Assembly (NCBI GenBank): GCA_955652195.1
Contig: CATPBC010000393.1
Location: forward strand, 1-12,118
DNA: 12,118 nt
Reading direction: 5' to 3'
Source of the DNA: an uncultured Xanthobacteraceae bacterium
GTDB taxonomy: Bacteria; Pseudomonadota; Alphaproteobacteria; Rhizobiales; Xanthobacteraceae
The notes below the pieces were generated by a model. The model did not search any database and was not told the DNA's origin. It worked only from the letters and a program-made list of their open reading frames with translations. Each line of letters starts with the position of its first letter. Positions within the stretch are counted from its first letter, which is position 1. Positions 2,676-6,887 of the stretch are shown piece after piece. Position numbers and translations under genes: made by a program.

Positions 2676-2696
2676 TGATGTTATATTGTAACATCA
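2676..2696. promoter_or_regulatory. Zur box (zinc uptake regulator operator)
   Basis: The core GATGTTATATTGTAACATC (2677-2695) is a palindrome with 8 of 9 half-site bases matching, and T2676/A2696 add one more pair. It closely resembles the alphaproteobacterial Zur operator (GTTATA-N-TATAAC type). A TATATT at 2682-2687 inside it could be a -10 element, so Zur-Zn binding would block RNA polymerase. It stands 55 bp before a His-rich small gene and the znuC-znuB genes, exactly the genes Zur normally represses. The divergent kinase gene starts 110 bp to the left and may or may not be affected. No clear -35 was found. Confidence 0.85.
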
Positions 2697-2751: not shown

Positions 2752-2901
2752 ATGAGCCACCACCATCACCATGACAATGGACCGCATCCGTCAGCGGCAA
2801 TCGGACCATCGCTTTTGCGGTTATCCGCGCCTCACCGTCTTGTGGCGGCTGGAATTATCATCGCTTTGTTATGGGTGGCGTTCTGGTGGGCCATTCGCTG
2901 A
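2752..2901 (+). CDS. Small His-rich membrane protein upstream of znuC
   Basis: This is a 49-residue open frame that begins MSHHHHHDNGPHP. It continues through a short linker with another His and ends in one strongly hydrophobic segment (about residues 31-48, VAAGIIIALLWVAFWWAIR). The layout suggests a metal-binding N-terminal tail on a single membrane span, with the tail probably cytoplasmic if the RLSAPHRL basic stretch follows the positive-inside rule. It lies between the Zur box and znuC; its TGA is 15 nt before the znuC ATG, so it is placed as the first gene of the Zur-controlled operon. The start is the only plausible one, because a TAA at 2725-2727 closes the frame upstream, but no good ribosome binding site precedes it. 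I do not recognise a named family. A role as zinc-buffering or accessory subunit of the importer is inference. Confidence 0.65.
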   Translation: MSHHHHHDNGPHPSAAIGPSLLRLSAPHRLVAAGIIIALLWVAFWWAIR

Positions 2902-2916
2902 GGGCGGAGCGAAACG

Positions 2917-3657
2917 ATGCCGGAATTGCGATTCAAAAATCTGACGCTTGGCTATGAACGCCATCCCGCCGTGCATCACCTCGAAGGTGCGGTAAAAAAC
3001 GGCGCGCTGGTTGCCGTGGTCGGACCAAACGGGGCCGGCAAATCGACCCTGTTCAAGGGCATCGTGGGCACGCTCAAGCCGCTTGCGGGTTCAATCGAGC
3101 GCCACGGGATCGATGGCGGCGGCATCGCCTATCTGCCGCAGGTACCGGAGATCGACCGCTCGTTTCCAATCGGTGTTTACGACATGGTGGCGATGGGACT
3201 GTGGCGCAGCCGCGGCGTGTTCGGCGGCATTGCCGGCAAGGATAATCACGCCATCAAAGCGGCAATCGCAGCAGTCGGACTGACGGGCTTTGAGCACCGC
3301 GCCATCGGCACGCTTTCCGGCGGGCAAATGCAGCGCATGCTGTTCGCCCGGCTGGTTGCCCAGGATGCGCGCCTGATTGTGCTCGACGAGCCATTCGCCG
3401 CTATCGATGCCAGAACCTCTACCGAACTCTTGGCTCTCGTGCAGCGCTGGCATGCCGAGCGGCGCACGGTACTTGCCGCTCTCCATGACGTCGATCTGGT
3501 GAGAGCGGTATTCCCCGAGGCATTATTGCTGGCACGCGAACCGGTCGCGTGGGGTCCGACCCACGAGGTACTCACCGTCGAGAATCTGAATAAAGCGCGG
3601 CGCATGTGCGAAGCCTTCGACGAGAGCGCCGAGGCTTGCGCCGTGGCGGCGGAATAA
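2917..3657 (+). CDS. znuC: Zinc ABC transporter ATP-binding protein (ZnuC/AztA type)
   Basis: This is a cytoplasmic ATPase (246 aa) that powers metal import with the ABC-3 permease encoded next. All nucleotide-binding motifs are intact: Walker A GPNGAGKST at 36-44, Q-loop Gln75 in YLPQ, signature LSGGQMQR at 133-140, Walker B LIVLDE at 153-158 and the switch His190 in ALHD. The segment YLPQVPEIDRSFPIGVYDMVAMG is characteristic of Mn/Zn/Fe chelate-type importers. The start is supported by GGAG at 2906-2909, 7 nt before the ATG. The permease ATG follows after 11 nt. The zinc assignment rests on the Zur operator upstream and the CobW-type GTPase downstream; from sequence alone manganese would also be possible. 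Confidence 0.92.
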   Translation: MPELRFKNLTLGYERHPAVHHLEGAVKNGALVAVVGPNGAGKSTLFKGIVGTLKPLAGSIERHGIDGGGIAYLPQVPEIDRSFPIGVYDMVAMGLWRSRGVFGGIAGKDNHAIKAAIAAVGLTGFEHRAIGTLSGGQMQRMLFARLVAQDARLIVLDEPFAAIDARTSTELLALVQRWHAERRTVLAALHDVDLVRAVFPEALLLAREPVAWGPTHEVLTVENLNKARRMCEAFDESAEACAVAAE

Positions 3658-3668
3658 AGCCGCACGCG

Positions 3669-4538
3669 ATGCTCTATGAAAATCTAATTGCTCCGTTCGC
3701 CGATTTCGAGTTCATGCGGCGTGCGCTGCTCGGCACATTCGCGATCGCGTTCGGGGCCCCGCCTATCGGCGTGTTTCTGATGCTGCGCCGCATGAGCCTG
3801 ATGGGTGACGCCATGGCGCATGCGATCCTCCCCGGTGCGGCAATCGGGTTCCTGCTCGCGGGTTTGAGTTTGCCGGCAATGGCAGGGGCCGGCCTGATCG
3901 CCGGCTTTCTGATTGCAATCGGCGCCGGCCTGATCGCACGCGCGACTCCGTTGAAAGAAGATGCCTCGCTGGCTGCATTGTTTGTGATTTCACTGGCGCT
4001 TGGCGTCACCATCGTTTCGCTTAAGGGCAGCAACATCGATCTGATGCATTTTCTGTTCGGTTCGGTACTCGCCATCGATAATGCCGCGCTCGGTTTGATC
4101 CTCGCCATCACGTCCGTTTCGCTTTTAGTGCTCGCGCTTATCTGGCGGCCGCTGGTGCTCGATTCCGTCGATCCCGGATTCCTGCGTTCGGTCAGCCGCG
4201 CCGGCGGCGCAGCGCATGTCGTCTTCCTCGCGCTTGTAGTGGTCAATCTCGTCGGCGGCTTCCAAGTGCTCGGCACGCTGCTTGCCGTCGGCATGATGAT
4301 GCTGCCGGCGATCACCTCACGATTCTGGGCCCGCGATGTAACGGGAATGATCGTGGTGGCGGTCGCGAGCGCACTCATTTCCAGCTATGCCGGCCTGCTG
4401 CTCTCCTATGCCGCGGACCTGCCGTCAGGCCCTGCTATCATCCTGGTCGCCGGGCTGATCTATCTGCTATCGGTCGCGCTGGGGCCCTTTGGCGGTCTGC
4501 TCTGGCTCGTTTGGCCGCGCCGCCATCTTGAGGCGTGA
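3669..4538 (+). CDS. znuB: Zinc ABC transporter permease (ABC-3 family, ZnuB type)
   Basis: This inner-membrane channel subunit (289 aa, usual length) has about eight hydrophobic segments. Family motifs are visible: RRMSLMGDAMAHAILPG at 40-56 (the conserved SL.GDA..HA.LPG), VLGTLLAVGMMMLPAITSR at 200-218 and LPSGPAIIL at 251-259. The start at 3669 (MLYENLIAPF) is preferred to one at 3606, which would overlap the end of znuC and add an arginine-rich non-family leader (MRSLRRERRG). The ribosome binding site is weak, so translation may be coupled to znuC, whose stop lies 11 nt upstream. No substrate-binding protein gene follows; the next gene is a metal-chaperone GTPase after a 222-nt gap. Metal specificity is inferred from the Zur box. 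Confidence 0.92.
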   Translation: MLYENLIAPFADFEFMRRALLGTFAIAFGAPPIGVFLMLRRMSLMGDAMAHAILPGAAIGFLLAGLSLPAMAGAGLIAGFLIAIGAGLIARATPLKEDASLAALFVISLALGVTIVSLKGSNIDLMHFLFGSVLAIDNAALGLILAITSVSLLVLALIWRPLVLDSVDPGFLRSVSRAGGAAHVVFLALVVVNLVGGFQVLGTLLAVGMMMLPAITSRFWARDVTGMIVVAVASALISSYAGLLLSYAADLPSGPAIILVAGLIYLLSVALGPFGGLLWLVWPRRHLEA

Positions 4539-4760: not shown

Positions 4761-5795
4761 ATGCCTGAGCAAACTTCGATCGACAAAATCCCGGTGACGG
4801 TGCTGACGGGTTATCTCGGCGCCGGCAAGACGACGTTGCTCAACCGCATTCTGTCGGAGCCGCACGGCAAGAGATATGCCGTGATCGTCAATGAATTCGG
4901 CGAAATCGGCATCGACAATGAGCTGGTGGTCGGGGCCGACGAGGAAGTGTTCGAGATGAACAACGGCTGCATTTGCTGCACCGTGCGTGGCGATCTCGTG
5001 CGCATCCTCGACGGCCTGATGCGGCGAAAGGGAAAATTCGATGCCATCATTGTCGAGACCACCGGTCTGGCCGATCCGGCACCGGTCGCCCAGACCTTCT
5101 TCATCGACGAGAATGTCGGCCGCAGGACTAAACTGGATGCCGTGGTCACGGTCGCCGATGCCAAATGGCTCAACGAGCGGCTCAAAGACGCCCCGGAAGC
5201 CAAAAATCAGATCGCCTTTGCCGACGTGATTTTGATCAACAAGACCGATCTCGTCTCGCCTGAGGAACTCAGTGAAGTCGAGGCGCGCATTCGCGGTATC
5301 AACCCTTACGCCAAGGTGCACAAAGCCGAGCACGCCAAGGTTCCGCTTGATGCAGTGCTAGGCCGCAATGCTTTCGATCTCGATCGCATCCTCGATCTGG
5401 AGCCGGAATTCCTCGGCAGCGAGAATGACGATCATCACCACCGTCATGATCATGATCATGCGCACGCCCACGGCGGGCTGAAGCACTATCACGACGAGGA
5501 GATGCAATCGATTTCGCTCCACATCGATAGGCCGCTCGATCCCGATAAGTTCTTTCCCTGGGTGCAGGACCTCGTGCAGAAGGAAGGCCCGAACATTCTG
5601 CGATGCAAAGGCATTCTCGCGTTCAAGGATGACGATGAGCGCTTCGTCTTTCAGGGTGTTCACATGATCCTTGACGGCGATCATCAGCGGCCATGGAAAA
5701 CGGATGAGAAGCGCGAGAGCCGAATCGTTTTCATCGGCCGCAACCTGCCCGGCAAAATGATCAGCGAAGGTTTCGAAAGCTGCATCGCGAAATAG
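4761..5795 (+). CDS. CobW/COG0523-family GTPase, probable zinc metallochaperone
   Basis: This is a cytoplasmic G3E-family P-loop GTPase (344 aa). It has Walker [10 protein letters not shown] at 17-25, switch-like NEFGEIGID (44-52), the diagnostic metal-binding CxCC in [11 protein letters not shown] (Cys70, Cys72, Cys73), ETTGLADP (99-106) and the base-specificity motif NKTD at 160-163. A His-rich flexible loop at 225-244 ([19 protein letters not shown]) separates the GTPase from the CobW C-terminal domain (about 248-340). COG0523 members with CxCC and His loops deliver zinc, cobalt or iron to client enzymes. The start is fixed by AGGAG at 4749-4753, 7 nt before the ATG. Proximity to Zur-controlled znuCB favours zinc (ZigA/ZagA/YciC-like). 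A role in cobalamin synthesis is unlikely because no cob genes are near. Confidence 0.93.
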
Positions 5796-5879
5796 TGCAG
5801 TTCTTCGCCAGCTGGAATTAATCTTGGATCGGCGCCTCTCGCGGGGCAGAGACTTCAGAGCGGCACTCAGCAATCATCG

Positions 5880-6887
5880 ATGTCCGTCCATAGCAGCGAC
5901 ACAGCATCCGTGGTCGAGCGCACGCGACCGATCGTCGTCGGTGGCGGCAGCATCGTAGCTGCGCATTTTCTCGGCCGTACCGCCGCCTTCGTTCTCGGCG
6001 AAGAAGCCATCGTGCTCGTACCGTCCGACGGCGATCCGCGTCGCGTCGCCGCCCACAGCGGCGCTATCCTGACCACCGCGGCCGACAGTGCGCGCATCAT
6101 TACTGGCGGCGACGACAGCAAACTTGTCCTGACCGGTGCGAATGGGGAAAGCCGCATCTTGGCGAGTGACCCGAAGCACCGGTGGATCGATCAGGTCGCG
6201 CTCGGGCCGGACGGCGCGGTCGCCTGGTCCGCGGGTAAAACCGCCTATGCGCAGTCAAAGGAGTTGCGCACATTCGAAGCGCCATCCACGGTCGGCGGGC
6301 TCGCATTTTTTCCCAAGGGGTTCCGGCTCGCGATCGCCCATTACAATGGCGCCACGCTCTGGTTTCCGAATGCTTCCGGCGCAACGCCGGAAAAGCTCGA
6401 ATGGAAGGGTTCGCATCTCGGCGCAACCGTAAGCCCCAACGGCCGGTTTGTGGTTACCAGTATGCAGGAGCCGATGCTGCATGGCTGGCGGCTTGTCGAC
6501 CGGCAGCACATGCGGATGTCGGGCTACGCCACCCGGGTGATGTCGCTTTCGTGGAGCCCGGGCGGCCAGTGGCTCGCCACGTCCGGAGCGACTCAGCTCG
6601 TGCTGTGGCCGTTCCAGAGTAAAGACGGCCCGATGGGCAAGACGCCACGCTTATTGACCCCATCGGGGCACCGCATCGACGTCGTTGCCTGTCATCCGCG
6701 TAGCGACGTAGTCGCAGTGGGTCATAGTAACGGGCTCGTCTTGCTCGTGCGCATCGAAGACGGCGTTGAGATATTGGCTAAAAAACCAGGCGAGGGGCAG
6801 ATCACGGCGCTCGCGTGGAGCAGCGACGGACTGTTGCTCGCTTGGGGCACTGAGGCCGGTGAGGCCGGCATAGTCGATCTCGCCTAA
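5880..6887 (+). CDS. WD40-repeat beta-propeller protein
   Basis: This 335-residue protein is built almost wholly of WD40-like blades. Eight units can be read, at about 20-48, 59-86, 103-124, 137-163, 179-205, 219-245, 265-292 and 307-334. The clearest is RVMSLSWSPGGQWLATSGA ending in LVLWPF. There is no signal peptide or membrane span, so it should be cytoplasmic, and no catalytic domain is attached, which suggests a protein-protein scaffold. It starts 84 nt after the CobW-type GTPase on the same strand, and the gap shows no terminator, so the two are probably co-transcribed. A functional link to metal delivery is inference from this pairing. The ATG at 5880 has no strong ribosome binding site. 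The stop codon overlaps a dispersed repeat beginning at 6886. Confidence 0.85.
   Translation: MSVHSSDTASVVERTRPIVVGGGSIVAAHFLGRTAAFVLGEEAIVLVPSDGDPRRVAAHSGAILTTAADSARIITGGDDSKLVLTGANGESRILASDPKHRWIDQVALGPDGAVAWSAGKTAYAQSKELRTFEAPSTVGGLAFFPKGFRLAIAHYNGATLWFPNASGATPEKLEWKGSHLGATVSPNGRFVVTSMQEPMLHGWRLVDRQHMRMSGYATRVMSLSWSPGGQWLATSGATQLVLWPFQSKDGPMGKTPRLLTPSGHRIDVVACHPRSDVVAVGHSNGLVLLVRIEDGVEILAKKPGEGQITALAWSSDGLLLAWGTEAGEAGIVDLA

Follow-up and report, generated by a model that had tools for sequence, protein, structure and literature searches.

A widespread one-helix membrane protein encoded ahead of AztA-type zinc importers, probably an overlooked part of the transporter

Does a 49-codon frame lying directly ahead of the genes of a zinc ABC importer encode a component of that importer, and what might such a component do? 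The frame lies in a window of 12,118 nucleotides, the whole stretch of DNA analysed here, from an uncultured Xanthobacteraceae bacterium. The window contains the following features:

2679..2693 (longer palindrome 2677-2695), no strand assigned: putative Zur-type operator TGTTATATTGTAACA, a palindrome match with predicted Zur binding
2752..2901, plus strand: gene for the small one-span protein, first gene of the operon (frame call, homologues and dN/dS)
2758..2787, plus strand: His-rich N-terminal tail, His 3-7 and His 12 (CAC CAC CAT CAC CAT ... CAT), variable between lineages
2827..2895, plus strand: predicted membrane helix, residues 26-48 (AlphaFold2 monomer, mean pLDDT 88.0)
2917..3657, plus strand: AztA-like ABC ATPase, earlier read as znuC (NF040873 215.2 bits, cut-off 220; PF00005)
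3669..4538, plus strand: AztB-like ABC-3 permease, earlier read as znuB (NF040871 260.9 bits, cut-off 280; PF00950)
4761..5795, plus strand: neighbouring COG0523/CobW-type GTPase with a His-rich stretch, 222 bp downstream

The small gene reads from ATG to TGA and its product, MSHHHHHDNGPHPSAAIGPSLLRLSAPHRLVAAGIIIALLWVAFWWAIR, has five consecutive histidines near the N-terminus and one hydrophobic stretch at the C-terminal end. The original prediction had described a 49-codon, one-span frame ending 15 nt before the ATPase gene, and we confirmed both the frame and the 15-nt gap to the ATG at 2917. It had also placed a Zur box 55 bp upstream; the box is present, but its distance from the small-gene ATG is 58 nt, or 56 nt from the longer palindrome. 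Exact matches to TGTTANNNTNTAACA occur at only two places in the genome, the small-gene promoter and the region upstream of the single ZnuA-type gene, so that the palindrome at 2679-2693 is common to the znuA promoter. When one mismatch was allowed, five forward and three reverse matches were found, compared with 8 and 15 in the controls, indicating no enrichment. Zinc-dependent repression of the operon by Zur is putative, and the Zur box together with homology predicts that the operon transports zinc. At L100 (G000:C299), a Zur box lies between the znuA-type gene and a divergent gene read by eye as hisZ.

The reading of the locus as a Zur-controlled znuCB operon was right in that a Zur-boxed zinc-importer operon is present, but its genes are Azt-like, not classical ZnuCB. 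The nearest named ATPase and permease are AztA and AztB of the AztABCD system of the Paracoccus denitrificans type, and both window proteins score just under the NCBI curated cut-offs for it. The window further differs from AztABCD in having the small gene and in lacking adjoining aztC and aztD genes, the aztAB pair being followed by a CobW/COG0523-type GTPase and then a WD40-repeat protein (4761-6887). The same GTPase-WD40 order follows the genes for AztA, the permease and a binding protein in Skermanella (L409). The sole ZnuA-family binding-protein gene of the genome, which is 85% complete, is on another contig. In P. denitrificans, a Zur motif upstream of aztA is described in the accessible text of PMC5387054.

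The small frame proved to be a regular companion of aztA. An initial survey of 101 genomes yielded 30 loci, 29 of which adjoined an AztA gene, and among 54 genomes contributing one AztA locus each, a one-span frame lay directly upstream in 52, these frames being hand-picked among candidate frames. Among 79 loci from named genomes, a first profile, built from the last 36 residues of those 52 frames, recovered 77 and failed at two with 32 bp or no sequence upstream; among 68 loci from the whole class it recovered 50 at E <= 1e-3. With a retrained profile, a related one-span ORF was detected just upstream of aztA in 308 of 333 unique AztA loci of Pseudomonadota (391 loci minus two with less than 150 bp upstream and 56 duplicates) and in none of 2398 reverse-strand control ORFs. 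Recovery was 86/93 among held-out loci (L305 onward; the retraining used loci up to L304). One locus scored as a miss (L129) nevertheless has a related frame ending 165 nt upstream. Among eight later additions outside the 333 (L404-L411), five carried the ORF, two did not (a Bradyrhizobium sp. 172 plasmid and Devosia) and one had no detected AztA. By contrast, ABC-3 importers of other kinds, such as ZnuCB of the E. coli type, have the permease family PF00950 in common with the window's importer, but at 20 control loci for other ABC-3 metal permeases in the relatives' genomes the small ORF was absent from all (1826 ORFs, best E 0.12). No fusion of the small protein to the AztA N-terminus was found at E <= 1e-3 in 272 upstream extensions (best 0.007). 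The window's frame, a same-strand ORF that ends near the aztA start and matches the helix profile, is a founding member of this family. Conservation in relatives, a check put forward in the original prediction, left its claim unrefuted, the frame being retained in 52/54 picked loci and 308/333 loci by profile.

Within the window's genus, where several of the 20 genomes are incomplete, three carried AztB (E <= 1e-20), all three with the small ORF (E 3.6e-29 to 5.1e-8), and the remaining 17 gave no small-ORF match better than 4.3e-4, a match that is interrupted by a stop codon and is not accompanied by AztA. The importer itself is patchy among close relatives, 17 of the 20 genomes having no AztB at E <= 1e-20. 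Among the 25 of 333 loci without the small ORF, 17 have an AztA with at least 45% identity, 14 of these with a His-rich AztA tail, and the other eight encode distant ATPases (<45% identity). The ORF-less loci include operons annotated as AztABCD in Paracoccus alcaliphilus, Sinorhizobium numidicum, S. chiapasense, Shinella and Phyllobacterium; because AztABCD operons proper are among them, the importer can work without the small protein. The AztA C-terminal tail has at least three histidines in five of the first six AztABCD-annotated records. The small ORF was likewise absent from the records examined of Mesorhizobium and Devosia with aztAB, and present in Neorhizobium. Related ORFs also occur in Bradyrhizobium and Rhodopseudomonas palustris (L172, L111 and L184).

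A Zur-like box occurs within 150 nt upstream of the small gene in 32 of the 52 relatives with picked frames, and in several relatives (L020 (G007) and the L004-L030 upstream regions) it ends just 2-8 nt before the chosen start, a short distance that suggests leaderless or nearly leaderless transcripts. No Shine-Dalgarno-like stretch precedes the ATG of the window's small gene; such a stretch was found in 20 of the 52 relatives, against 8.4 expected from shuffling. In 222 ORF-bearing loci, with aztA starts estimated by alignment, the small ORF most commonly stops 2 nt before the aztA start (41/222) or overlaps it by one base (39/222), spacings that would suit translational coupling. The metagenome gene calls for P0008 and P0010 begin 17 codons early and read through the Zur box (MLYYNIA...), so the start codon has probably been miscalled.

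These proteins have gone largely unnamed. The window's protein had no Pfam or NCBIfam match, be it to CbtB, KdpF, ZrgA or any other family, and none of ten representatives scored above cut-off, two long His-rich ones having sub-cut-off matches (best E 0.0032). A single-protein search returned just 11 relatives, whereas a profile search of the database returned 141 at E <= 1e-4 among 8000 scored candidates. For at least 120 database relatives, the names among the matches listed were hypothetical or uncharacterized protein, apart from three that JGI had assigned automatically (zinc binding protein or adhesin for two, gluconate symporter for the third). In plasmid gene tables, which are incomplete, the small ORF is entered as a hypothetical protein for Comamonas and for Skermanella and is unlisted in Neorhizobium and Thioclava. 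A literature search, largely at the level of titles and abstract openings, found no description of the protein. The small proteins form a widespread, unnamed one-helix membrane family ahead of one type of zinc importer, in agreement with the earlier view that the protein is short enough to be missed by gene calling.

The zni loci are among the closest described systems. The Klebsiella locus between mltB and pncC is given as zniCBA in the accessible text of PMC10797113. In Klebsiella pneumoniae, we found a one-span ORF adjoining the ATPase start (profile E 1.6e-9), with a Zur-like box lying 127 nt before the estimated start; unlike the window's protein, its product has no His tail. For Rhizobium leguminosarum ZniCBA, the accessible text of PMC12183173 places a Zur motif 153 bp before the ATPase gene, an interval with room for a small ORF. 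The portions of these two papers on ZniCBA that were available contained no mention of such a protein that we could find. Caulobacter znuGHI (PMC4176598) and Cupriavidus zniCBA (PMC11647595), judged from the accessible parts of those papers, were rejected as the same system, each being a system of another kind.

Small single-span proteins of a few dozen residues encoded in the operon of the complex they serve are familiar from CbtB (cobalt), KdpF (potassium) and CydX. The window's protein resembles them in size, single span and operon position, but they serve other complexes; no sequence relation was seen, and none of the three appeared among Pfam matches at E <= 1 for the ten representatives.

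A stretch of His codons shortly before an operon is reminiscent of hisL, and the size of the frame is in itself unremarkable, so the frame might be read as a His-codon attenuator leader or as a chance frame. Codon substitutions speak otherwise: dN/dS, another check proposed at the outset, was 0.25 in the small-gene frame, the two alternative frames giving 1.79 and 1.90, as calculated over a 30-codon core, the helix region, from 1258 non-independent pairs of 116 loci, all of them relatives (the window's own sequence is absent from the set, since in this core its DNA is no more than 70% identical to that of any other locus). The frame in relatives is under purifying selection. Moreover, the helix is kept where the His codons are missing, and no plus-strand terminator-like site lies between the frame and aztA, the region holding two in total against 2.2 expected. 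We therefore rejected the leader-peptide and chance-frame readings, on the dN/dS values and terminator-like site counts, as scarcely credible; the frame at 2752-2901 is a genuine gene.

What is conserved in the family is the membrane helix, an arginine followed by LW....WA, and not the His cluster. W41 is the only invariant column in a 61-sequence alignment (A1), with M1, S20, R23 and R29 nearly invariant, and many homologues that keep the helix have no His tail. The original description of a His-rich protein applies to the window's lineage, but the family as such is not defined by a His cluster. The window's R23 and R29 lie on the N-terminal side of the helix, and 188 of 205 cores have an arginine directly in front of it. 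Because arginines flank the helix on this side, the N-terminus is probably cytoplasmic, and the protein would be inserted in the membrane in that orientation. K+R averaged 2.21 over the 15 residues preceding the helix, compared with 0.38 following it, and the N-terminal side had the larger number in 204/205; this charge rule carries little weight here, the C-terminal flank having a median of one residue past the scored helix.

The opposite orientation would place the His tail in the periplasm, where it would catch zinc ahead of the binding protein or alongside it. That compartment commonly holds His-rich zinc catchers, and the binding-protein gene does lie elsewhere in the genome. The arginines before the helix and, weakly, the charge bias with its short C-terminal flank argue for an N-terminus inside, as does the alternation of the tail with one on the cytoplasmic ATPase, described below, and we regard a periplasmic tail as very unlikely.

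Where a homologue has no His tail, AztA often has one on its cytoplasmic C-terminus. Among 307 loci with a complete AztA end and an AztA at least 45% identical to that of the window, at least three histidines were present on the small protein only in 191, on the AztA C-terminal tail only in 35, on both in 3 and on neither in 78 (Fisher p 4e-14, uncorrected for kinship). Because chosen starts are uncertain, histidines of the small protein were scored over the final 70 residues of its open frame; with chosen starts, the four-cell table for the first 215 loci read 1, 131, 14 and 69. In 25 more distant loci, the tail was on the small protein only in three, on AztA only in one, on both in one and on neither in 20. 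Within the seven families that vary in both traits, no co-occurrences were seen where 9.0 were expected, a result reached by 0/20000 shuffles; one named family in this test may equal a coded one, and the three co-occurrences belong to families f6 and f28, which vary in one trait only and stand outside it. In L369 and L370 of family f6, the small protein and AztA alike have His-rich tails. Genus-majority counts were 79 for the small protein, 14 for AztA, 1 for both and 56 for neither (p 1.4e-4). On the AztA tree, eight supported independent pairs changed the same way in 0.0 and the other way in 3.4 cases (means; median p 0.25), so that this phylogenetic sign test did not reach significance. The alternation is striking and recurs in several families, yet is unproven by the strictest test.

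One explanation that makes little of the tail is that the helix is merely an assembly or stability factor for AztAB and the His tail a neutral, variable ornament. The helix is indeed the conserved part, and on the AztA tree the small-protein His tail has changed at least 29 times whereas gene presence has changed three times. Alternation with the tail of AztA (0 co-occurrences against 9.0 expected within families) is not what neutrality would predict, and we consider this explanation improbable.

We favour, as reasonably likely, a role in which the small protein is a single-span inner-membrane subunit of the AztAB-type zinc importer, and its cytoplasmic His tail, where there is one, receives zinc at the exit. 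Because the gene pairing is strict, the helix, with its conserved preceding arginine and internal LW....WA, would pack against the importer. The N-terminus would face the cytoplasm; since the AztA C-terminus is cytoplasmic in ABC importers and the tails alternate, we place the tail's work on that side of the membrane. In the window's lineage, the His tail would take Zn2+ leaving the AztB channel and may hold it for cytosolic acceptors. The COG0523 GTPase next door is a possible acceptor that would be linked to the small protein in this way. Where the small protein has no His tail, that of AztA may serve instead.

The same anatomy, in which the small protein or the ATPase, but rarely the two together, bears a His tail on the cytoplasmic side, would suit the main rival, a zinc sensor in which Zn2+ bound to the tail locks the ATPase or permease by trans-inhibition. 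Regulatory cytoplasmic extensions do occur in ABC importers of the MetNI and ModBC type and provide a precedent. The tail, however, has no fold that would signal to AztA, and 78/307 loci have neither tail, which makes trans-inhibition unlikely in our view. We also entertain, as a doubtful generalization, that AztAB and ZniCB importers across Pseudomonadota are three-component membrane complexes whose third, single-helix member has been missed even in characterised systems such as Klebsiella ZniCBA, and that a metal-binding His tail at the cytoplasmic face, movable between this member and the ATPase, acts as a zinc sensor that controls transport from within.

Returning to the favoured reading of a zinc-accepting subunit, the AztA-type zinc importer probably has an overlooked part. 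If so, a piece would be missing from the picture of a well-studied class of importer: purified or reconstituted AztAB or ZniCB would be without a native subunit, and gene deletions that begin at the ATPase may have hit the small gene unknowingly. To our knowledge, the role of cytoplasmic His tails has usually been asked of eukaryotic carriers only; the natural exchange of a His tail between subunits would offer a ready test of what such tails do in metal importers.
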